From contig NC_059351.1 of the NCBI RefSeq assembly GCF_019703515.2, forward strand, positions 21,405,001-21,469,000: a stretch of 64,000 nucleotides of DNA. The letters run 5' to 3'. Both the position numbers and the translations under genes were made by a program. Shown here piece after piece: positions 2,836-62,581 of this stretch. This DNA is from Myxocyprinus asiaticus (Eukaryota > Chordata > Actinopteri > Cypriniformes > Catostomidae). Positions within the stretch are counted from its first letter, which is position 1, and each line of letters starts with the position of its first letter. A model generated the notes under the pieces. It was not told the origin of the DNA and made no database searches. It saw nothing but the letters and a program-made list of their open reading frames with translations.

Positions 2836-3197
2836 TGATAAGATATCTTACGACTTGGCTTGTACGAAAAGGTACTACTTTAATTTGCATATAGACTGAC
2901 CAATCAACAAGGAGAATTACAAATTGAAACAATACAGGCATCAGATTTTCGCTAACCTTCTATCCAGCACTTTATTTTAAGGAAGGAAACGTCAGTGAAC
3001 AAATGTGATTACTCATTTTGTATTTATTTATGCAATACAAATGACTGATATATGTCAATAACCTGTAATACTCTTGAACGCTTCCCTCATCTCGTTCCAA
3101 ACCCTGATGTTTTTTTTTTTTTCTGTCATACACAAAAATTATTTTCCTATTAAAATCATGGTTAAGTTTAGGTTAGGGGTTAGGTTAGGTTAAACTT
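2836..3197. repeat. Dispersed repeat X, copy 1
   Basis: It aligns by eye with 19425-19740 over most of its length. Shared blocks are a GTACGAAAAGGTA-like motif, CCAATCAACAA, CACTTTATTT and ACGTCAGTGAACAAA. It ends in TTAGGTTAGG-like runs. The family is not identified. Confidence 0.6.
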
Positions 3198-3231
<34 letters not shown>

Positions 3232-3232
3232 A
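3198..3232. repeat. (TA)n microsatellite
   Basis: A TA run with one phase change. Confidence 0.9.
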
Positions 3233-4376
3233 TACGGCTCTTTTGCAGCGCTTTGTTTGCCGTGATTCTCTGATTGGTAAATTGTTTCACTTCAGGATCA
3301 TGGGTAGTGTTATTAGAAATTCTGCTATTAAACACGATTTTTTTAAATTAAGTTGAAATAACGTGGACTGATGACTTCAACAGAAGCATATGCCACCGAT
3401 TAACATCCTCAGAGCTCACGGTAGGTCTGTTTTTAAAGGTTTATAAGTTATCATTCATTATTAATTTGCATATGGAGAAAATGTATGTGATTATTATTTT
3501 TACAACCAAACTTTTGCGCTCTATTGGCATGTAAAAACAACATGAATAGGTTGTGACTGGCTGCCATTCTTTCCTATGTTGGTGGTTCTTGGCCAAAATA
3601 AGCTGCAAACTGGAGCAGACTTTTTGGCAATAGACAAAGTCTGGCTAAAGTCGAGAAAACTTTAAAACTATCCAAACGCTGCTCCTGCTAACAACTTGGA
3701 CTCATTTCTTCCTGTAGTATAAATGTGGTATTGAGGGTCATTTACTTATTCTCTTCCATTCCCAACGGGCTGACCTCACTTACACATGCATTGGATATCA
3801 ATGCGGTTAGATTCTCAAATCTAAAGGGAAGGACTTTGGATAATTGGTCTGGGAATAACAGGGAAACAGCCTCCACATCTTCTCCTTGACTGTGACAGTG
3901 CTGTCAATGAGTGCTGGTAGGATTCACTGCCTGTTTGACAGCAAACATGAAATGTTTTATTGTAAGAGCTGGTTTCATTGGCAAATATTACAAGGCTTGG
4001 ACTACAGTGAACTACATTAAACAGTCTGTCGAAAGGCTTATGCTTATTCCAACAAGTGTCCGGCTTACATGCGAATCCCTTCAATACTGTTTAGAAAGCA
4101 TCTCATGATGCACCTCTTGGAGATGCTTGAGCTCTGATGTACCATCATAAGTGTGCATGTGCATGCTTATACAAACTAGTGTTAAAGTCTTTGCAAGCTT
4201 TGCTGACACATCCGTAGAGTTACCGATGACCTTGCACAGAGCATAGTGATACATTACCTCTATTTGTGCTAAGATATCTCAAGAAGACTTTGGCTAACTT
4301 CAAGTGATCCTTCCATCTCGACAGTTGTGCTTCCTGCAGTATTGGTTCTGGATGACTGCCTAGATAACATATATTA
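3233..4376. other. Non-coding, no feature recognised
   Basis: Unique-looking AT-rich sequence. The short frames near 3820-4108 overlap on both strands and show no domain. Confidence 0.5.
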
Positions 4377-4400
4377 GCAGAGAGAACTGCTCGGAGGGAT

Positions 4401-6243
4401 TTGCTTGAGGAAGTTTATCATCAAACACCATTTGTTCAGATTCAGCACTGTACAGATAAACTAAAAGCTGCCAGGCCAGCATATTTTAGCAAACTCATAG
4501 AAAATAACCACAACAATCCTAGGTGTTTATTCAGTACTGTGGCTAAATTGGTTAGGAATAAAGCATCGACTGAACCGGATATTCCGTCACAGCACAATAG
4601 TAATGATTTCATGAATTTCTTTACTGATAAAATTGAAATAATCAGAAATAAAATTGGAACTATGCAATCAACTGTCACAGCACCTCAGGAAACAGTGTCT
4701 CATAATTTTGCTCACGAGCAACTTCAATCCTTCGCTGTCATATGTCATGAAGAGCTAACAAAACTTATCAAAAAATCAAAAGCCACAACATGTATGTTAG
4801 ATCCAATACCAACTAAGCTCTTAAAAGAAGTATTCCCAGTAATCTCAGAACCTCTTCTTAATATTATTAACTCCTCGCTATCCTTAGGACATGTCCCAAG
4901 AAACTTTAAAATGGCAGTTATCAAACTGCTTATTAAGAAGCCACAGCTTGATCCTAGAAAATTGGCTAGTTACAGACCAATTTCAAATCTACCATTTATG
5001 TGGATACTAGAAAAGGTAGTGTCCTCCCAACTATGTTAACTTCTACAGAGAAATGGAATATATGAACAATTTCAGTCAGGATTTAGGCCCCATCACTGTC
5101 CAGAGACTGCATTATCAGAGTTACAAATGACTTGCTCTTATCATCTGATCACAGCTGCATTTCACTTCTAGTGCTTTTAGATCTTAGTGCTGCCTTCGAC
5201 ACGATAGATCACGACATTCTCTTGAATAGGCTGGAGAATTATGTTGGCATTAGTGGACTTGCATTAGCATGGTTTAGGTCCTATATATCAGACCGCTACC
5301 ACTTTGTATGTGTAAACGAGGAATTGTCAAATCAAACAAAATTTAAGTATGGAGTACCACAGGGATCAGTTTTAGGACCTCTGCTTTTCTCCTTATGCTT
5401 CCCATGGGAGATATTATCAGGAATCATGGAATAAGTTTCCACTGTTATGCCAACGATACCCAACTTTATATTTCTTCTAAACCCAACGGAAATTAACAAT
5501 TCTCCAAATTAGCAGAGTGTATCAATGAAATCAAAGACTGGATGGCCAGAAATGTCCTTTTACTTAATTCCGAAAAAACAGAGGTACTAATGATTGGACC
5601 ACAAACCTCTAAAAATAAGCCGCTAAAATATAATTTGACTCTCAATGGATGTACTGTTACGTGGACTTCTTCTACAAAGAACTTAGGTGTTATATTTGAT
5701 ACCAATCTGCCCACCTGAGAAATATTGCTAAATTACAACACATGCTCTCTGTTGCTGATGCCGAAAAATTATTCATGCGTTCATGACCTCAAGACTAGAT
5801 TACTGTAATGTATTACTGGGAGGATGTCCAGCAAGTTCAATAAATAAACTTCAATTGGTTCAAAATGCAGCTGACAGAGTGCTGACTAGAACCAAGAAAT
5901 ATGATCATATTAGCCCAATTTTATTGTCATTACATTGGCTACCTGTTAAATTTCATATTAATTAAAAAATTCTGTTAACTACATGCAAAGCTTTGAATGG
6001 TCTAGCTCCACAGTACTTAAGTGACCTTCTAACACGCCATATTCCATCACGTTCATTACAATCACAAAATTCTGGCTTGTTAATAATTCCAAGAATATCA
6101 TAATCCACAAAAGGAGGTAGATCCTTTTCATTTTTGGCCCCTAAACTATGGAATAGTCTCCCTAACAGTGTTCGGGATGCAGACACACTCACTCAGTTTA
6201 ATTCTACACTAAAGACTCATCTACTTAGCCAGGCATACACCTA
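4401..6243 (+). pseudogene. Decayed L2 reverse transcriptase
   Basis: The enzyme would copy the LINE RNA at a nicked genomic site. The first segment (4401-5039) ends with the RT entry block SYRPISNLP. After a stop at 5037-5039 and a frameshift near 5117 comes LLVLLDLSAAFDTIDHDIL and then [15 protein letters not shown] second frameshift falls near 5397. The catalytic box then reads CYANDTQLY where active RTs have YADD, so the first aspartate is lost. The frame resumes after a stop, and a segment is missing near 5715. The C-terminal part from 5783 shows SRLDYCN and LQLVQNAA, typical of the L2/CR1 group. At least five disabling lesions make it non-functional. Confidence 0.85.
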
Positions 6244-7169: not shown

Positions 7170-8801
7170 CAGTTGTGCTCAAAAGTTTGCATACCCTGGC
7201 AGAAATTGTGAAATTTTGGCATTGATTTTGAAAATATGATTGATCATGCAAAAATACTGTCTTTTATTTAAGGATAGTGATCATATGAAGCCATTTATTA
7301 TCACATAGTTGTTTGGCTCCTTTTAAAATCATAATGATAACAGAAATCACCCAAATGGCCCTGATCAAAAGTTTACATACCCTTGAATGTTTGGCCTTGT
7401 TACAGACACACAAGGTGACAGACACAGGTTTAAATGGCAATTAAAGGTTAACTTCCCACACCTGTGGCTTTTAAAATTGCAGTTAGTGTCTGTGTATAAA
7501 TAGTCAATGAGTTTGTTATCTCTCACATGGATGCACTGAGCAGGCTAGATACTGAGCCATGGGGAGCAGAAAAGAACTGTCAAAAGACCTGCGTAACAAG
7601 GTAATGAAACTTTATAAAGATGGAAAAGGATATAAAAAGATATCCAAAGCCTTGAAAATGTCAGTCAGTACTGTTCAATCACTTATTAAGAAGTGGAAAA
7701 TTCGGGGATCTCTTGATACCAAGCCAAGATCAGGTAGACCAAGAAAGATTTCAGCCACAACTGCCAGAAGAATTGTTCGGGATACAAAGAAAAACCCACA
7801 GGTAACCTCAGGAGAAATACAGGCTGCTCTGGAAAAAGACGGTATGGTTGTTTCAAGGAGCACAATACAACGATTCTTGAACAAAAATGAGCTGCATGGT
7901 CGAGTTGCCAGAAAGAAGCCTTTACTGCGCCAATGCCACAAAAAAGCCTGGTTACAATATGCCCAACAACACCTTGACATGCCTCACAGCTTCTGGCACA
8001 CTGTAATTTGGATTGACAAGACCAAAATAGAGTTTTATGGTCATAACCACAAGCGCTATGTTTGGAGAGAGGTCAACAAGGCCTATAGTGAAAAGAATAC
8101 CATCCTCACTGTGAAGCATGGTGGTGGCTCACTGATGTTTTGGGGGTGTGTGAGCTCTAAAGGCACGGGGAATTCTGTGAAAATTGATGGCAAGATGAAT
8201 GCAGCATGTTATCAGAAAATACTGGCAGACAATTTGCATTCTTCTGCACGAAAGCTGTGCATGGGATGCTCTTGGACTTTCCAGCATGACAATGACCCTA
8301 AGCACAAGGCCAAGTGGACCCTTCAGTGGTAACAGCAGAAAAAGCTGAAGGTTCTGGAGTGGCCATTACAGTCTCCTGGCCTTAATATATTCGAGCCACT
8401 CTGGGGAGATCTCAAACGTGCGGTTCATGCAAGACTACCAAAGACTTTGCATGACCTGGAGGCATTTTGCCAAGACGAATGGGCAGCTATACCACCTGCA
8501 AGAATTTGGGGCCTCATAGACAACTATTACAAAAGACTGCACGCTGTCATTGATGCTAAAGGGGGCAATACACAGTATTAAGAACTAACGGTATGCAGAC
8601 TTTTGAACAGGGGTCATTAAATTTTTTTCTTTGTTGCCATGTTTTGTTTTATGATTGTGCCATTCTGTTATAACCTACAGTTGAATATGAATCCCATAAG
8701 AAATAAAAGAAATGTGTTTTGCCTGCTCACTCATGTTTTCTTTAAAAATGGTGCATATATTACCAGTTCTCCAAGGGTATGCAAACTTTTGAGCACAACT
8801 A
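7170..8801 (+). mobile_element. Tc1 element with IR/DR-type ends
   Basis: The outer end CAGTTGTGCTCAAAAGTTTG is inverted at 8771-8801. A second, inner repeat (ATCAAAAGTTTACATACCC near 7357, counterpart GGTATGCAGACTTTTGAACA near 8591) gives two repeats per end, the IR/DR layout of Sleeping Beauty-like elements. TA precedes the left end at 7168-7169; the right edge has drifted by a base or two. It is 1.63 kb long, the usual Tc1 size. Confidence 0.9.
7559..8581 (+). pseudogene. Tc1 transposase with one nonsense codon
   Basis: A cut-and-paste DDE transposase. The frame runs 340 codons from ATG to the terminal TAA and is broken only by TAA at 8330-8332. The N-terminal half holds two helix-turn-helix regions joined by a GRPRK motif near residue 60, for binding the terminal repeats. 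Catalytic residues are D153 (VIWIDKTK), D244 (FQHDNDPKH) and E279 (IFEPLW). The last two are separated by 34 residues, so it is DD34E. The usual SPDLNP box reads SPGLNI. The internal stop falls between D244 and E279, so the truncated product would lack the third catalytic residue. The stop probably replaced a leucine TTA by one change. Confidence 0.92.
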
Positions 8802-12911: not shown

Positions 12912-14495
12912 CAGGTGCATCTCAATAAATTAGAATGTCGTGGAAAAGTTCATTTATTTCAGTAATTCAACTCAAATTGTGAAACTCGTGTATTAAATAA
13001 ATTCAATGCACACAGACTGAAGTAGTTTAAGTCTTTGGTTCTTTTAATTGTGATGATTTTGGCTCACATTTAACAAAAACCCACCAATTCACTATCTCAA
13101 AAAATTTGAATACATCATTAGACCAATAAAAAAAACATTTTTAGTGAATTGTTGGCCTTCTGGAAAGTATGTTCATTTACTGTATATGTACTCAATACTT
13201 GGTAGGGGCTCCTTTTGCTTTAATTACTGCCTCAATTCGGCGTGGCATGGAGGTGATCAGTTTGTGGCACTGCTGAGGTGGTATGGAAGCCCAGGTTTCT
13301 TTGACAGTGGCCTTCAGTTCGTCTGCATTTTTTGGTCTCTTGTTTCTCATTTTCCTCTTGACAATACCCCATAGATTCTCTATGGGGTTCAGGTCTGGTG
13401 AGTTTGCTGGCCAGTCAAGCACACCAACACCATGGTCATTTAACCAACTTTTGGTGCTTTTGGCAGTGTGGGCAGGTGCCAAATCCTGCTGGAAAATTAA
13501 ATCAGCATCTTTAAAAAGCTGGTCAGCAGAAGGAAGGATGAAGTGCTCCAAAATTTCTTGGTAAACGGGTGCAGTGACTTTGGTTTTCAAAAAACACAAT
13601 GGACCAACACCAGCAGATGACATTGCATCCCAAATCATCACAGACTGTGGAAACTTAACACTGGACTTCAAGCAACTTGGGCTAAGAGCTTTTCCACCCT
13701 TCCTCCAGAGTCTAGGACCTTGGTTTCCAAATGAAATACAAAACTTGCTCTCATCTGAAAAGAGGACTTTGGACCACTGGGCAACAGTCCAGTTCTTCTT
13801 CTCCTTAGCCCAGGTAAAACGCCTCTGACGTTGTCTGTGGTTCAGGAGTGGCTTAACAAGAGGAATACGACAACTGTAGCCAAATTCCTTGACACGTCAG
13901 TGTGTGGTGGCTCTTGATGCCTTGACCCCAGCCTCAGTCCATTCCTTGTGAAGTTCACCCAAATTCTTGAACCGATTTTGCTTGACAATCCTCATAAGGC
14001 TGTGGTTCTCTCAGTTGGTTGTGCATCTTTTTCTTCCACACTTTTTCCTTCCACTCAACTTTCTGTTAACATGCTTGGATACAGCACTCTGTGAACAGCC
14101 AGCTTCTTTGGCAATGAATGTTTGTGGCTTACCCTCCTTGTGAAGGGTGTCAATGATTGTCTTCTGGACAACTGTCAGATCAGCAGTCTTCCCCATGATT
14201 GTGTAGCCTAGTGAACCAAACTGAGAGACCATTTTGAAGGCTCAAGAAACCTTGGCAGGTGTTTTGAGTCGATTAGCTGATTGGCATGTCACCATATTCT
14301 AATTTTTTGAGATGGTGAATTGGTGGGTTTTTGTTAAATGTGAGCCAAAATCATCACAATTAAAAGAACCAAAGACTTAAACTACTTCAGTCTGTGTGCA
14401 TTGAATTTATTTAATACACAAGTTTCACAATTTGAGTTGAATTACTGAAATAAATGAACTTTTCCACGACATTCTAATTTATTGAGATGCACCTG
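12912..14495 (-). mobile_element. Tc1 element with 200-bp inverted repeats
   Basis: Left repeat 12912-13112 and right repeat 14295-14495 are nearly identical reverse complements beginning CAGGTGCATCTCAATAAATT. TA duplications flank it at 12910-12911 and 14496-14497. The transposase lies on the minus strand. The near-identity of the long repeats suggests a fairly recent insertion. Confidence 0.95.
13192..14196 (-). pseudogene. Tc1 transposase with two CpG-decay stops
   Basis: One continuous minus-strand frame of 335 codons including the terminal stop, from ATG at 14194-14196; an in-frame ATG at 14232 is less likely because Tc1 proteins start near the MGKT-like motif. The N-terminal helix-turn-helix includes AGCSQSAVSKHV, followed by basic GRKKCGRKR. 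The catalytic core keeps LFSDESKF, FQQDLAPAHTAK and SPDLNPIENLWG; the last D and E are 34 residues apart (DD34E). The only breaks are TGA at 14011-14013 and TGA at 13897-13899, both where family members commonly have CGA arginine. Both fit C-to-T decay at CpG. No frameshift was seen. Confidence 0.92.
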
Positions 14496-20625: not shown

Positions 20626-21113
20626 TATTCCAGGTTCACAACAAGTTAAACTCAATCGACAATATTTGTGGCATGATACTAATTACCACAAAAAAATAAT
20701 TTCGACTCATTCATACTTTTCTTTAAAAAAAAAAGCAAAAATTAAGGTTACAAAGAGGCACTTACAATGGAAGTGAATGGGGCCAATTTTAGGAGGGTTT
20801 AAAGGTAGAAATGTGAAGCTTTTAACTTTATAAAATCACTTACATTAATTCTTCTGTTAAAACTCGTGTATTATTTGAACTGTACATTTGTATTAATAAC
20901 TGTCTTTACGTTCATTTTTGGGTTTAGGGTGTTACGTCGTCATGGCAACTTAACACAGATAAGGTTAGTAAGCGATTTTATCACACTAAAATCATTTTAC
21001 CATGCATATTGTTTATGTCTTGTGGCTGTACTTTTTAAACAGTGAGTATTTTAATGTTTACGAATTGGCTCCATTCACTTCAATTGTAAATGCCTTACAA
21101 TGTTCCTTAAGTT
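20626..21113. mobile_element. TTAA MITE family B, copy 1 (right-truncated)
   Basis: It starts AATATTCCAGGTTCA and contains CACTTACAATGGAAGTGAAT, then a body matching the intact copy at 61963-62581. It fades out after CTTCAATTGTAAATGCC. Confidence 0.75.
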
Positions 21114-33333: not shown

Positions 33334-33403
33334 TGGTGATTTTATCACAGTAGTAGTAGTGATTTTATTACACTAAAATCATGTTAACATGCATATTGTT
33401 TAA

Positions 33404-34087
33404 AGCTAGGGTGTGCAATCTTTTCCAGAAACATTTTTTGTTATACTGGTTGAAAGTCTCTTCACGTCCTGATAGCAATCAATAATTTAAGTGGTCTAAA
33501 TGTAAAAAAAAAAAATATATATATATCTTCTGTGGAAGGGACAGGACTAAAAAATGATCGACCAATCATTGCATTCGGTCCGAATGTAATGATAAGATGT
33601 CCTTCCTGTCTGTCCATCTATATTTGCATACCGCCGTGCATCTTGTTCGCGCAGACAATCACACGCCATCAACGCGGGTTCTTTGATGCTGTGCAGAGCG
33701 AGCGCGAGAATGGAAGATGAACCGCAGCTACCTTATGTTCCTCCTGAACCACCAGTAAAAGGAAACAAGAAAAGAAAGACCGTGTTAGAAACTTCTACAA
33801 CGAAACAACGTCTGGATCAAGATTGTGCTAAAAGCAGAATTAACATTGGCGTTGCTTTTCCACGCTGGAGGCAACTACGGGACTCAAAGGGTCTGAAAAA
33901 TGACACCATGGTTGCTGTTTTTCTTTTGGAGAGGTAATTACATGGTTTGATTTGTTTTTGATATATTTTGTTAATGAAGTATTTAGAGGAGACGTGGCTT
34001 TGGAGACACCTCTGAAGCGAGGGCGGGCTCTATGCTTTCAAAGCTAGCTTGCTAACTGCTAGCCTCTCTGGATTACACACCCTAGCT
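33404..34087 (+). mobile_element. TTAA element C carrying a short coding exon
   Basis: The ends AGCTAGGGTGTGCAATC and GATTACACACCCTAGCT are near-perfect inverted repeats, with TTAA at 33400-33403 and 34088-34091. It lies inside MITE B copy 2, whose uninterrupted relatives read GTTTATGTCTTG at this point, so the empty site is known. Size 684 bp. The interior carries an ATG-started ORF ending at a splice donor. No transposase is present. Confidence 0.85.
33710..33937 (+). CDS. 75-residue ORF in TTAA element C, possible first exon
   Basis: I do not recognise a named gene. The ATG at 33710 is preceded by a CpG-rich leader. The product is acidic and proline-rich at the start (MEDEPQLPYVPPEPP), then basic (KGNKKRKT, a possible nuclear signal, near residues 18-25). 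It ends with an ordered segment containing NIGVAFPRWRQLRDSKGLK and VAVFLLER. The stop TAA overlaps a good splice donor, AG|GTAATT with GT at 33934-33935, so the frame probably continues in a downstream exon. A longer in-frame start at 33683 is possible. Single lesion-free frame in an otherwise decayed region. It may be a captured host exon or the first exon of the parent transposon's own protein. Confidence 0.5.
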   Translation: MEDEPQLPYVPPEPPVKGNKKRKTVLETSTTKQRLDQDCAKSRINIGVAFPRWRQLRDSKGLKNDTMVAVFLLER

Positions 34088-34111
34088 TTAAGTCTTGAGG
34101 ATTTACTTTTT

Positions 34112-34386
34112 TTAAATTAATTCCCCTTTTCTCCCCAATTGGGAATTCCCAATGCACTTGAAGTCCTCATGGTGGTGTAGTGACTCGCCTCATTCCGGGT
34201 GGCGGAGGACGAATCTCAGTTGCCTCCACATCTGAGACCGTCAACCCGCGCATCTTATCACGTGGAGGTTACCCCATGTGACTCTACCCTCCCTAGCAAC
34301 CGGGCCAATTTGGTTGCTTAGGAGACCTGGCTGGAGTCACTCAGCACGACCTGGATTCGAACTCACGACCCCAGGGGTGGTAGTTG
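34112..34386 (-). mobile_element. tRNA-derived SINE, internally deleted copy
   Basis: Same family as the SINEs at 41346 and 43434. On the minus strand the head has a B box GTTCGAATCCAGG-like motif, followed by GTGACTCCAGCCAGGTCTCC. It lacks about 130 bp between CTTATCACG and AGGTTAC that the 43434 copy has. Flanks AGGATTTACTTTT and AGGAGATACTTTT form an imperfect duplication. Confidence 0.75.
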
Positions 34387-41154: not shown

Positions 41155-41945
41155 CGGGGGGCTCGTGAGTGCCTTCAGCACTAGATTTAGGTCCCAAGTC
41201 AGTACCAAAGCAGGGTGAAGGTGTTCAGTCACCTCACTCCTCTAAGGAATTTTATGATCAGATCATGCCTGCCTATAGAGGAATCTGCCTCCGTAGCATG
41301 AAACGCTTAAATAGTCACTACATAAACCTTAAGAGTTGACAGGGTGGGGCCTGAGTAGCTCAGCAGGTATTGACACTGACTACCACCCCTGGAGTCACAA
41401 ATTCTAATCCAGGACAGGCTGAGTGACTCCAGCCAGGTCTCCTAAGCAACCAAATTGGCATGGTTGCTTGGGAGGGTAGTCACATGGGGTAACCTCCTCA
41501 CGGTCGCTATAATGTGGTTCTTGCTCTCGGTGGGGCACGTGGTGAGTTGTGCGTGGATGCCGCGGAGAATAGCATGAAGCCTCCACATGCGCTACATCTC
41601 CGCGGTAATGCGCTCAACAAGCCATGTGATAAGATGCGTGGATTGATGGTCAGACATGAAGGCAACTGAGATTCGTCCTCCGCCACCCGGATTGAGGTGA
41701 GTCACTATGCCACCATGGGGACTTAGAGTGGATTGGGAATTGGGCATTCCAAATTGGGGAGAAAGGGGAAGAAAAAAAAAGAGTTGACGGGGTAAGACCT
41801 GCATCTAATTGCTCTTGAAGGAATGTAAGAATCTCTGCTATGGAGCAATTCACTGAGTCTTCGCTATGTGATGAGCACCAATTTGCAAACACCTGCCATT
41901 TTAGTCCAAAGAGGTGTCTCATGGACAGTGCTCTAGCCTAAATGG
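41155..41945 (-). pseudogene. DIRS tyrosine recombinase, N-terminal remnant
   Basis: On minus, RHLFGLKWQVFANWCSSH, then CSIAEILTFLQEQLDAGL, is the core-binding part of the DIRS recombinase. A SINE (41346-41779) interrupts it after LTPSTL; on its far side come KVYV and HDLIIKFLRGV. It then reads into the terminal repeat, and the catalytic domain with the R-HxxR-Y residues is missing. This copy could not integrate by itself. Confidence 0.7.
41346..41779 (+). mobile_element. tRNA-derived SINE in the DIRS recombinase
   Basis: Starts GGGGCCTGAGTAGCTCAGCA (A box), has a B-box-like ATTCTAATCCAGG and ends GGGGAAG plus an A-run. Flanked by a 14-bp duplication, AGAGTTGACAGGGT (41332-41345) and AGAGTTGACGGGGT (41780-41793), one mismatch. 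Confidence 0.9.
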
Positions 41946-43372: not shown

Positions 43373-44051
43373 TGTAACAGGGTTAAAAATGGGCAAGGAG
43401 GAGGCGGGAACCGGACGAAGCATCAAAGTAATACGATTTTTTCACCCAATTTGGAATGCCCAATTCCCAGTGCGCTTTTTAAGTCCTCATGGTTGCATAG
43501 TGATTCGCCTCAATCTGGGTGGCAAAGGATGAATCCCAGTTACCTCCGTGTCTGAGACCATCAACCCACGCATCTTATCACGAGTCTTGTTGAGCACGTT
43601 GCCACAGAGACATAGAGCGTCTGGAGGCTTCACGCCACCCACCGCGGCATCCATGCCCAACTGACCACACGCCCCACCGAGAACGAACCACATTATAGCG
43701 ACCACTAGGAGGTTACACCATGTGACTCTAACCTTCCTAGCAACTGGGCCAATTTGGTTGCTTAGGAGACCTGGCTGGAGTCACTCAGCATGCCCTGGGA
43801 TTCGAACTAGCGAACTCCAATGGTGGTAGCCAGTGTCTTTTAACACTGAGCTACCTAGGCCCCCCTCAAAGTAATATTTGAATGAAAACAAACAAAAGAC
43901 ACAAACATAAACACACACACACGGCAGCTGCGTGTGGCTCTCTCCCGAACTGCTGCACCCAGCTGCCCTTATCACTCTCCTCGGCTGATTAGCCCAGTTG
44001 AGGGCCGGGCATGTGTAGTCACAGCCCCACCCTTCCCTCCTCCTCGTCACA
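43373..44051 (-). mobile_element. Solo LTR inserted in the DIRS RT
   Basis: On the minus strand it runs TGTGACGAGGAGGAGG to CCCTGTTACA. A perfect 5-bp duplication GCACG lies at 43368-43372 and 44052-44056. A pol II polyadenylation/terminal region CATTCAAATATTACTTTG is present. No internal region is left, so it formed by LTR-LTR recombination. A SINE is nested inside. Confidence 0.92.
43434..43865 (-). mobile_element. SINE nested in the solo LTR
   Basis: Same family as 41346-41779 but reversed; the head (CCTAGGTAGCTCAGTGTTAA on minus) is at 43865 and the short T-run tail at 43436. A perfect 11-bp duplication TCAAAGTAATA lies at 43423-43433 and 43866-43876. Confidence 0.95.
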
Positions 44052-57585: not shown

Positions 57586-58898
57586 TGTGAGAGATCAAGA
57601 GTTCAAAAGTCTGATTGCTTGGGGGAAGAAGCTGTCATGAAGTTGGCTGGTGCGGGTCCTGATGCTTCGATACTGCCTGCCTGATGGTAGCAGTGAGAGC
57701 AGCCCATGGCTCGGGTGACTGGAGTCTCTGATGATCCTCTAAGCTTTTTTCACACACCGCCTGGTATATATGTCCTGGAGGGAGGGAAGCTCACCTCCGA
57801 TGATGTGTCTGGCAGTTTGCGGTACTATTGCCATACCAGGCGGAGATGCAGCCAGTCAGGATGCTCTCTACAGTGCTGGTGTAGAACCATGTGAAGATGT
57901 GGTGGTTCATTCCAAACTTCCTCAGCTGTCTCAGGAAGAAGAGGTGCTGATGAGCCTTCTTCACAATGGCCTTGGTGTGGACAGACCATGTGAGTTCCTC
58001 AGTGATGTGGACACCGAGGAACTTGAAGCTGCTGACTCTCTCCACTGGTGCTCCATTGATGGTGATGGGGCTGTATTCTCTTTCTCTTCTCCTGAAGTCC
58101 ACCACAAGCTCCTTTGTCTTGCTGACGTTGAGGGAGAGGTTGTGCTCCTGATACCAGCGTGTCAGAGTGCGCACCTCCTCTCTGTAGGCTGTTTCATCAT
58201 TGTCAGTGACCTACCACCATCGTATCATCAGCAAATTTAATGATGGCATTGGAGCTATGTGTTGCCACACAGTCATGTATGTACAGGGAATACAGGAGTG
58301 GGCTGAGAACACAGCCCTGTGGTGCTCCAGTGTTGAGGGTCAGTGATGAGGAGATGTTACTGCTCATTCTAACCACCTGGCATCTGCTTGACAGGAAGTC
58401 CAGGATCCAGCTGCACCGCGAGCTGTTTAAGCCTAGAGCCCGGAGATTCACATCAAGCTTGGAGGGCACTATGGTGTTGAATGCTGAGCTGTAGTCTACA
58501 AACAGCATTCTCACATAAGTGTTCCTTTTTTCCAGGTGGGAGAGAGCAGTGTGTAGTGTAGATGCAATGGCATCATCAGTGGAGTGGTTGTTGCAGTAAG
58601 CAAACTGCAATGGGTCCATTGAGGGAGACAGCACAGAGCAGATGTAATCTCTGATTAGTCTCTCAAAGCATTTGCTGATGATGGGGTCAGAGCAACAGGA
58701 CGCCAGTCATTTAAGCAAGTGCTTTGGTACAGGCACAATGGTGGACATTTTGAAGCATGTGGGGACCACAGACAAGGAGAGGGAAAGGTTGAAAATGTCC
58801 GTAAAAACACCAGCCAGCTGGTTCGCACACGCTCTGATGACGCGGCCCGGAATGCCGTCTGGACCTGCGGCTTTACGGATATTCACCCGTCGGAAGGA
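57586..58898 (-). pseudogene. LINE reverse transcriptase and C-terminal region
   Basis: On minus, KAAGPDGIP (near 58870), a frameshift near 58718, then PLQFAYCNNHSTDDAI, MLFVDYSSAFNTIVPSKL and GAPQGCVLSPLLYSLY. The catalytic box KFADDTMVVG (FADD intact) lies near 58230. After a frameshift near 58200 come LSLNVSKTKELVVDFRR and FKFLGVHI, the thumb region, then a C-terminal LLPSGRQ-like segment ending near 57600. Two frameshifts and one stop disable it. Confidence 0.8.
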
Positions 58899-60518
58899 TC
58901 AGATTACATCTGCTACAGAGATGGAGAGTGAACTAACCTCTGTAGCTTCGGCCGCGAGAGCTCTCTCTGCGAGGGCGGTGTTATTTCCCTCGAAACGAGC
59001 ATAAAAAGTATTTAGCTCATCCGGGAGAGAGGCAGCAGTGTTCACGGCGGAGTTTTTATTCCCTTTAAAGTCCGTGATGATATTAATTCCCTGCCACGTG
59101 CTTCTAGAGTTGGTGGTGTTAAACTGTCCCTCAATCTTGTTCCTGTACTGGCGTTTTGCTGCTCTGATAGTTTTGCGGAGGGCATAACTGGCTTGTTTAT
59201 GCTCCTCCGCGTTCCCGGAATTAAAAGCGGAGGTCCACGCATCAAGTGCAGCGTGAACGTCGCTATTAATCCAATGTTTCTGGTTGGGGGAGATCCGTAT
59301 TGTTTTGGTCAGAACAACATCCTCTACGCACTTTCTGATGAAACACATTACGCTATCAGCGTAAAGCTCGATGTCGTTATCAGAGGTGGAACGGAACATC
59401 TCCCAGTCCGTGTAATCAAAACAGTCTTGTAGCATAGAGTCTGATTGGTCCGACCAGCACTGGATTGTTCTGAGGGTGGGTGCTTCCTGTTTCAGTTTCT
59501 GCCTGTAAACGGGCAGAAGCAGAACAGAAGAGTGGTCCGATTTGTCAGATGGTGGGCGGGGGAGGGATTTGTAGCCATCCCGGAAGGGAGAGTAGCAATG
59601 GTCCAAAACCCGGTCCCCACGTGTGTTGAAACTGATGCGTTGGTAGTATTTTGGTGCTATTGACTTGAAGTTGGTTTTGTTAAAGTCCCAGATCACAATG
59701 AACGCAGCCTCAGGGTGCACGGTTTCCTGCTTGCTTATACTCCCATACAGTTCCTTGAGTGCCTGGTCTGTGTTGGCTTGTGGCGGGGTGTACACAGCAG
59801 TGATAATGACCGCTGTGAATTCCCTCGGTAGCCAGAATGGTCGACACAGAAGCATGAGAAATTCCAGATCAGAAGAGCAGAAAGACTTGACAGAATGTAT
59901 GTTCCTCTGATCACACCAGGATTTGTTGATCATAAAACATAAATCACCACCTCTGCTTTTACCTGAGAGGTCTTTCGCTCTGTCCGCTCAGTGCACGGAG
60001 AACCCCGCGGGTTCGATGGCTGAATCTGGAATCTCCTCAGACATCCAAGTTTCTGTAAGGCAGATAATGCAGCAGTCCCTTGTCTCTTGTTGGAAAGAGA
60101 TCCACGTTCTCAGCTCGCAGACCTTGTTGTCCAGAGACTGAAAATTTGCCAGTAGAATACTGGGTCGCAGGGGTCGATTTGCATGACGTCTTACTCCGAT
60201 GAGAATGCGGGCTCTAGTTCCCCTTTTCCTTCTGCGTTTAACGCGGCCAGGCTGCCCAGACAAAGGGCTCCGCTGGCGTGTTTGTAAACAGTGGGTCGGC
60301 ATTGAGGAATATGAAGTCCGGTTTACGGTGTGTAATTGCAGAACCAATGTCCAAAAGTGTTTGTCTGTCGTAGACAAAAAGGCAGACAACATCTGAAACA
60401 AAAAACATAAGAATTGTAAACAAAACAAACAAAAAACTACAATGTTGTGTCGGAGCTCGCAACGCCGCAGCCATACTCGGCACCATCTTGAGTTCTTCAT
60501 CCATGCCGTATGTGTCAC
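58899..60518 (-). pseudogene. LINE AP-type endonuclease domain
   Basis: The domain nicks target DNA to prime reverse transcription. The frame shows SILLANFQSL and CLTETWMSEEI (metal- and phosphate-binding start), then, after an in-frame TGA at 59988-59990, SGKSRGGDLCFMINKSW. Further on are IVIWDFNKTNF (usual GDFN, with G replaced by W), then SDKSDHSSVLLLP, the catalytic SDH motif. The TGA stands where CGA arginine is likely, another CpG-type change. A second TGA at 58899-58901 precedes [16 protein letters not shown], the RT entry region. The first frame starts with a frameshift near 60240. Confidence 0.8.
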
Positions 60519-60530
60519 AGAGGTTTATAT

Positions 60531-61962: not shown

Positions 61963-62581
61963 AGGATATTCAGTGTTCAAAACAAGTTAAGCTCAATCGA
62001 CAGAATTTGTGGCATAATGCTGATTTTGACTCATCCCTCCTTTAAAAAAACAAAATGCAAAAATTGAGGTTACAGTGAGGCACTTACAATGGAAGTGAAT
62101 GGGGCCAATTTTGAAAGGTATAAAGGCAGAAATGCGAAGCTTATAATTTGATAAAAGCACTTACATTAATTTTTCTGTTAAACCTCATGTATTATTTGAG
62201 CTGTAAAGTTGTTTAATTTGTATTTTTTACAGTCATTTTAAGGCTTTAGGGTTTGTTGCATTACATCGTCATGGCAATGAAGTTGTAAAATTGGCTATAA
62301 TTTTACACAGAAAAGGTCAGTAAGTGATTTTATCACACTACAATCACATTTACAAGCATATTGTTTATGCTTGTGGCTAAACGTTTGAAAAAGTGAGTAT
62401 TTTAACGTTCAAAAATTCGCCCCCATTCACTTCCATTGTAAGTGCCTCACTGGAACCAAGATTTTTGCTTTTTGTTTTTAAAGAAAAGGAGGGCAAGTCA
62501 AAATAATTTTTTGTGGTAATCAATATTATGCCACAAATGCTGTCGATTGAGCTTAACTTATATTGAACCCGGAATATTCCT
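61963..62581. mobile_element. TTAA MITE family B, intact copy
   Basis: The ends AGGATATTC and GAATATTCCT are inverted and flanked by TTAA at 61959-61962 and 62582-62585. The subterminal arms (CACTTACAATGGAAGTGAAT on the left, CATTCACTTCCATTGTAAGT on the right) are long inverted repeats. It has no ORF. It is the reference for broken copies at 20.6, 32.4 and 40.6 kb. Confidence 0.88.

Follow-up and report, generated by a model that had tools for sequence, protein, structure and literature searches.

A small TTAA-flanked element with a coding exon

The window, a stretch of 64,000 nucleotides from the Myxocyprinus asiaticus genome, contains a 684-bp element on its forward strand (33404..34087) that we classify as a non-autonomous Kolobok-type element. 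It begins at 33404 with the terminal inverted repeat (TIR) AGCTAGGGTGTGCAATC (33404..33420, forward strand) and ends at 34087 with GATTACACACCCTAGCT, the matching repeat on the reverse strand (34071..34087). These inverted ends are 17 bp long with a single mismatch, and when the TTAA target-site copies at 33400..33403 and 34088..34091 (no strand assigned) are added, 21 nt are 95% complementary. The initial annotation had described near-perfect inverted ends and TTAA duplications, and both were borne out with exact coordinates. It had also proposed that uninterrupted MITE B relatives preserve the empty site. When the joined flanks were aligned with the relative at 20966..21036 (forward strand), 62/75 positions were identical across the junction, the gap corresponding to the second TTAA, and the empty site in this relative was ATTGTTTATGTC, one base away from TTAA. 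The second relative, at 62323-62376, extended only nine bases past the junction in one comparison and ended at the junction in another. No second copy of the element was found in a self-comparison of the window. It was noted that the right flank (34121-34385) looks like a repeat that is also present at 41379-41770 and 43462-43829, perhaps a tRNA-derived SINE as judged by eye. Long open frames occur elsewhere in the window at 7556-8332 (forward), 13192-13896 (reverse) and 58203-60524 (reverse), and, judged by eye, they resemble a transposase of the Tc1 type and a LINE reverse transcriptase.

Inside the element, a CpG-rich leader at 33600..33709 (forward strand) is a probable promoter and 5' UTR. 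The CpG observed/expected ratio was 1.22 at 33600-33720 compared to 0.49 for the whole window, in agreement with the leader described initially. The leader contains TATATTTGCAT (33619..33629, forward strand), which we take to be a TATA-like run overlapping a presumably octamer-like motif, ATTTGCAT; a role for either would be putative, and ATTTGCAT was retained in 36/40 of the family copies sampled below. An ATG frame at 33710-33934, starting 306 bp from the left end of the element, is open for 75 codons and encodes NKKRKT and RINIGVAFPRWRQLRDSKGLK, corresponding to the KKRK-type basic patch and ordered segment that had been pointed out earlier. The frame runs cleanly to AG|GTAATT as claimed, with the correction that the last base of exon 1 is 33933 and the donor GT occupies 33934-33935. 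Coding exon 1 (33710..33933, forward strand) thus comprises, when spliced, 74 complete codons and two further bases (phase 2), and is followed by the predicted splice donor GTAATT (33934..33939, forward strand), whose GT was retained in 36/40 copies. The 75th residue and the in-frame TAA that ends the 75-residue product (33935..33937, forward strand) are present only in unspliced RNA.

We sought relatives of this short product through several searches. A structure predicted for the 75 residues from 14 sequences contained three helices (25-42, 46-60, and 65-74) with a mean pLDDT of 77 and a pTM of 0.37, and a Foldseek search of this model against the PDB returned no match at E<=10. A Pfam search with the ORF gave no match and no THAP domain, on which ground a THAP identity for exon 1 was rejected. 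The PDB sequence search with the ORF returned one meaningless match (E 3.4), no relative was confirmed in scans of viral and prokaryote contigs, and the 75 residues alone, used as a protein query, gave no match among candidates that, for such a short query, were limited to proteins of about 41-131 residues. Without a Pfam match, the exon-1 segment may be an undescribed small piece of a transposase family; that it might bind DNA is conjecture, prompted by its basic patch.

Family copies, exon decay, and exon 2

The source fish's own genome (2.34 Gb, 345 contigs) was searched with the element as DNA, and 40 of the 522 first-look candidates were scored. These 40 copies are the best matches to the window copy, which is itself included, and form a sample biased toward similar copies. 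The 36 copies with both ends known span 552-1268 bp, TTAA was found at both sides in 30 of them, and a 17-bp TIR starting with AG was common to the sampled copies. The end sequence of the window's family, next to TTAA, was AGCTAGGGTGTG. The TTAA+TIR pattern had 610 genome matches at <=2 mismatches, with up to two matches per element, compared to 0 for the reversed control, and a 26-base core of exon 1 had 120 matches at <=3 mismatches and 0 in its control. Of the 100 exact TTAA+TIR matches listed (of the 610), at least 31 had the exon core no more than 3 kb away in the same orientation and 0 had it in the opposite one, the 31 being a lower bound since the pairing used 100 of the 120 exon-core places, on contigs C1-C22. 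Approximately one-third of the sampled ends belong to exon-keeping elements, and the remainder are shorter, diverged or unread. Because of the 610 versus 0 TTAA+TIR matches and protein matches down to E 1.9e-19, the carriage of a coding exon by a small element, as the initial annotation observed, is confirmed beyond chance.

Other open-frame copies, expected if the initial annotation were right, do exist: the frame was open in 15/40 copies including the window copy (in L027 only via compensating shifts), the donor GT was kept in 36/40, and both occurred together in 14/40. We assessed selection on the exon by scoring substitutions against the majority consensus of the 40 copies, with the expectation taken from their noncoding sequence. 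The exon contained 291 nonsynonymous changes, 108 synonymous changes and 14 stops, compared to an expected 229.6, 88.7 and 14.2, and selective maintenance of the exon-1 frame was rejected by this nonsynonymous to synonymous ratio. Among changes seen in a single copy, 113 were nonsynonymous and 43 synonymous (expected 88.2 and 32.5), and 27/36 exon indels shifted the frame. In a sample biased to window-like copies, this pattern agrees with a young family decaying neutrally and not with maintenance of the frame. The comparison of synonymous with nonsynonymous change that had been proposed for the ORF thus returned a neutral rate, and the exon is not specially kept.

Two structural variants were also noted. 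The copies L037 and L040 share an extra block in the left half of some 200 bp or more, possibly a nested insertion. At L065, a copy at 3192-4875 is split by about 960 bp at the start codon and has a match to exon 2; neither a right end nor a TTAA pair was found there within 8 kb.

A second exon was present between intron 1 and the right end in 12/40 sampled copies. Its acceptor AG, judged by eye, was kept in nine of the 12 and was missing from L016, L024 and L025. Exon 2 begins T-TAC-GAA, so that a serine codon is completed after the AG of exon 1. Seven of the 12 copies read YENTATSTPLVHGF in the frame shown (five of these preceded by S), and the other five were displayed in another frame, the display starting from the fuzzy match. 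The YENTATSTPLVHGF sequence resembles YEKTATSTPLVHGF of predicted cyprinid proteins, and a second donor, GTGAGT, lies 3' of exon 2 in L024, L025 and L037. The window copy is without exon 2: its internal deletion junction lies at 33980..33988 (forward strand), and it is between the junction and the right end that the 12 copies carry the exon. Deletion junctions differ among the relatives, and many adjoin a TG repeat.

Relatives of exon 1 in predicted proteins and transposase loci

The protein search with the ORF returned three of ten candidates with E<=1, and the search with the N-terminus of P0004 returned 19/124, P0004 itself counted. Protein identity to the ORF ends at the donor, and the proteins continue with YEKTATSTPLVHGF or similar. 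Two predicted proteins of the goby Mugilogobius, P0018 and P0019, carry the exon-1 N-terminus at about 40% identity. In P0018 this N-terminus is followed by a transposase-like region with D423, D491, DIWH at 515, and E634/E636; these D/D/DxxH/E residues were assigned by eye, and DIWH is the sole [CD]xxH in the protein. No transposase model and no THAP domain was matched by P0018 in Pfam and NCBIfam. In the predictions P0002 and P0003 the shared segment is preceded by a THAP domain, and P0016, predicted from Polymixia lowei, has the exon-1 segment ahead of C2H2 zinc fingers.

Eleven predicted proteins (P0004-P0014) belong to one locus, LOC143716740 of Siphateles boraxobius. Among these were six N-terminal sequences of five types, all exon-1 paralogues, and one junction to YEKTATSTPLVHGFT. 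At the junction stand S, C and F, each of which has codons whose last base is T or C. An acceptor shared in phase 2 and starting with one of these two bases would demand this; exon 2 in the window's family starts with T. The following exon in P0008-P0011 differs by one residue, a possible sign of two acceptor exons or of merged tandem copies. VKQEVPVQ is repeated at length in the proteins of this locus, whose C-terminal part matched no Pfam model.

When the Myxocyprinus genome was searched with P0018, 58 of the 2317 first-look candidates were scored and yielded 68 matching stretches, corresponding to approximately 23 transposase places and five places that match only the first 62 residues. The upstream sequence was read at 16 of the approximately 23 (those left aside being C2:44.66 Mb, C35, C39, C30, C27:0.13 Mb, C44 and C41). 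An exon-1 homologue was found upstream on the same strand at 11 of these 16 loci and was not detected upstream at C33, C20, C4:2.1 Mb, C27 and C31. The ORF itself matches at 10/11 positive loci, with 34-61% identity over the matched part, and L077, one of the 11, was a weak match obtained by P0004 only. The AG|GT falls at the same codon as in the window in nine of the ten printed exon ends, the tenth match having stopped earlier.

A TTAA+TIR pair was sought at 11 places, six of which were repeated with more sequence or a longer span. Among the four places of the window's family (L065-L068), pairs were found in L066 and L067 and none in L065 or L068. At the other seven, pairs were accepted at C45, C1:37 Mb and C31; those at C4:56 Mb and C27 were discarded because they bore no relation to the homology limits; C1:0.7 Mb had no pair, and the sequence of L046 was too short for the pair search. 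At C45, TTAA and ends matching at 13/16 bases enclose 5539 bp with exon 1 and transposase exons, and at C1:37 Mb, TTAA and ends matching at 13/16 enclose 4804 bp with the same content. The C31 element has ends matching at 14/16 and contains transposase exons within 3687 bp, exon 1 not being detected. The borders of all three coincide with homology limits between copies. Since unrelated sequence at C4:56 Mb also gives a 13/16 TTAA pair, the ends alone are no proof of borders and the homology limits are needed too. In the C45 element, exon 1 begins approximately 300 bp from the left end (ATG by eye), and the copy has lost the greater part of the first half of its catalytic region and is thus not an intact autonomous element. 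The TIR of the longer relatives was AGGTGCARTATGTAA, unlike that of the window's family, and no transposase-bearing copy with the family's own TIR was found in this genome.

Classification, alternative readings, and known systems

Kolobok elements are described in the accessible portion of PMC9587614 as having a TTAA target and 5'-RR..YY-3' ends, unlike piggyBac. Both traits were found here, as a 4-bp TTAA target-site duplication in 30/36 copies and as AG...CT termini. PiggyBac elements combine TTAA with CCY...RGG-type ends, and this superfamily was rejected on the AG...CT ends. The DDE transposase of Kolobok, with C/DxxH between the second D and E, is absent from the window copy, which has only exon 1 left; the motif, as assigned by eye, occurs in P0018, a protein with the exon-1 N-terminus, and the related TTAA elements contain transposase exons. 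The DxxH motif weakens the Kolobok assignment because it is common to four other superfamilies, hAT, P, MuDR and Dada (PMC9587614, accessible portion). A THAP domain is usual in Kolobok and not universal, according to the accessible part of PMC6004289; it was found in neither the ORF nor P0018, and in P0002 and P0003 it precedes the segment. We did not treat it as a defining trait, the term being absent from the text of PMC9587614. A MITE or other non-autonomous element is short, keeps its ends, lacks a transposase, and has many copies with target duplications, as was found here (552-1268 bp in the sampled copies with both ends, and 610 TTAA+TIR matches in the genome). This is a new family of non-autonomous Kolobok-type elements, within an element class that is itself known. 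We found no description of this exon or of Kolobok derivatives with a first exon alone in the literature covered, a weak negative since most subscription papers and Repbase Reports lie outside that coverage.

We consider it highly probable that the element is an internal-deletion, non-autonomous derivative of the Kolobok superfamily that retains the leader, first exon and donor of a transposase-type gene. The TIR pair of chance quality at C4:56 Mb and the weak match at L077 take a little off this confidence. The parent gene, lost and presumably with the same transposase as the longer TTAA elements, would start approximately 300 bp inside the left end and would comprise exon 1 (with the basic patch and the three-helix segment), a phase-2 intron 1, exon 2, and DDE transposase exons. 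The middle would then have been deleted, with the window copy additionally losing exon 2 and keeping the leader, exon 1, the donor, and about 100 bp of the right end. Its ends having been kept, the element would have been moved by a transposase made elsewhere and would have landed at a TTAA in a MITE, with copies decaying neutrally after insertion. No special pleading would then be needed for an element of MITE size that holds an intact coding exon, since this exon is the part of a transposase-type gene that the deletions left. The initial annotation had named the possibility that the ORF is only exon 1 of an ordinary transposase as one that would count against it, and this is largely what was found, with exon 2 in 12/40 copies and exon-1 homologues before transposase exons. 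Its portrayal of a mobile first exon stands insofar as there is a mobile element with a real first coding exon, a leader, and a donor, and is weakened as regards a specially kept cargo. The splicing into whatever lies downstream that it envisaged would be conjectural for the window copy, with hints at the level of the class in predicted proteins only.

An intriguing question is whether the exon does more than persist. In one alternative, the copies would act as a portable promoter, coding exon and donor, splicing to downstream acceptors and providing new N-termini for host or transposon-derived genes. The eleven Siphateles predictions, with five exon types at one phase-2-compatible junction, point in this direction, as do the Polymixia prediction that joins the exon to C2H2 zinc fingers, the exon core at 120 places, the donor GT kept in 36/40 copies, and the window copy itself, which is without exon 2 so that its donor, if used, needs an acceptor elsewhere. 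However, the Siphateles and Polymixia cases are predicted proteins, the Siphateles exon 2 is transposon-like so that merged tandem transposon copies fit equally well, and no selection on the exon was detected among the copies; we judge this reading unlikely. A broader form of it, more doubtful again, is that a TTAA lineage in cyprinid-type fish spreads interchangeable first exons, each with a leader and a phase-2 donor, that join to acceptors of one common kind and equip genes like LOC143716740 with several alternative N-terminal domains, the exon-1-only elements being the dispersal form. With 120 places matching the exon core, the GT retained in 36/40 copies and several such exons predicted at one cyprinid locus, the family offers a concrete setting in which transposon first exons can be tested as portable N-termini.

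The in-frame TAA at 33935-33937 would also permit a repressor similar to KP, in which unspliced RNA gives a 75-residue N-terminal and possibly DNA-binding protein that interferes with the full transposase. The basic patch and the three predicted helices (mean pLDDT 77) are consistent with such a product, but purifying selection was not seen among the 40 copies, 25 of the frames are closed, the model had no PDB match, and DNA binding is putative, which together make a repressor very improbable. We regard as slightly less probable still the capture of a piece of a host gene by a MITE, as in Pack-type elements. While the THAP-containing and zinc-finger predicted proteins do share the segment, the homologous exon 1 with the same donor lies before transposase exons, in two cases within TTAA-flanked elements, the exon-1 N-terminus is found in a transposase-like goby protein, and exon 2 was carried along too.

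P-element KP and Ds-type derivatives have lost internal sequence and kept both termini together with the beginning of their transposase gene. The present element shares this pattern, whereas it is not known to act as a repressor and its retained frame is without a sign of selection. Host-transposase fusion genes arise by exon capture, in which a transposon exon with splice signals is joined to other coding exons. A comparable case here would come from predicted cyprinid and Polymixia proteins alone, and the exon would be the first, with its own leader. The family resembles Kolobok transposons, as described in the accessible parts of PMC9587614 and PMC6004289, in its TTAA duplication, its AG...CT ends, and the D/D/DxxH/E transposase-like protein of its relatives. 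One Xenopus Kolobok group likewise starts AGCGATT. It differs from Kolobok in that the window copy is without a transposase and the exon-1 segment is without a Pfam match or a THAP domain. The T2-MITEs of Xenopus are short non-autonomous TTAA elements that are presumed to be Kolobok and have a terminal AGGRR motif (PMC6004289, accessible part), whereas the window element has AGCTA and has kept a coding exon.
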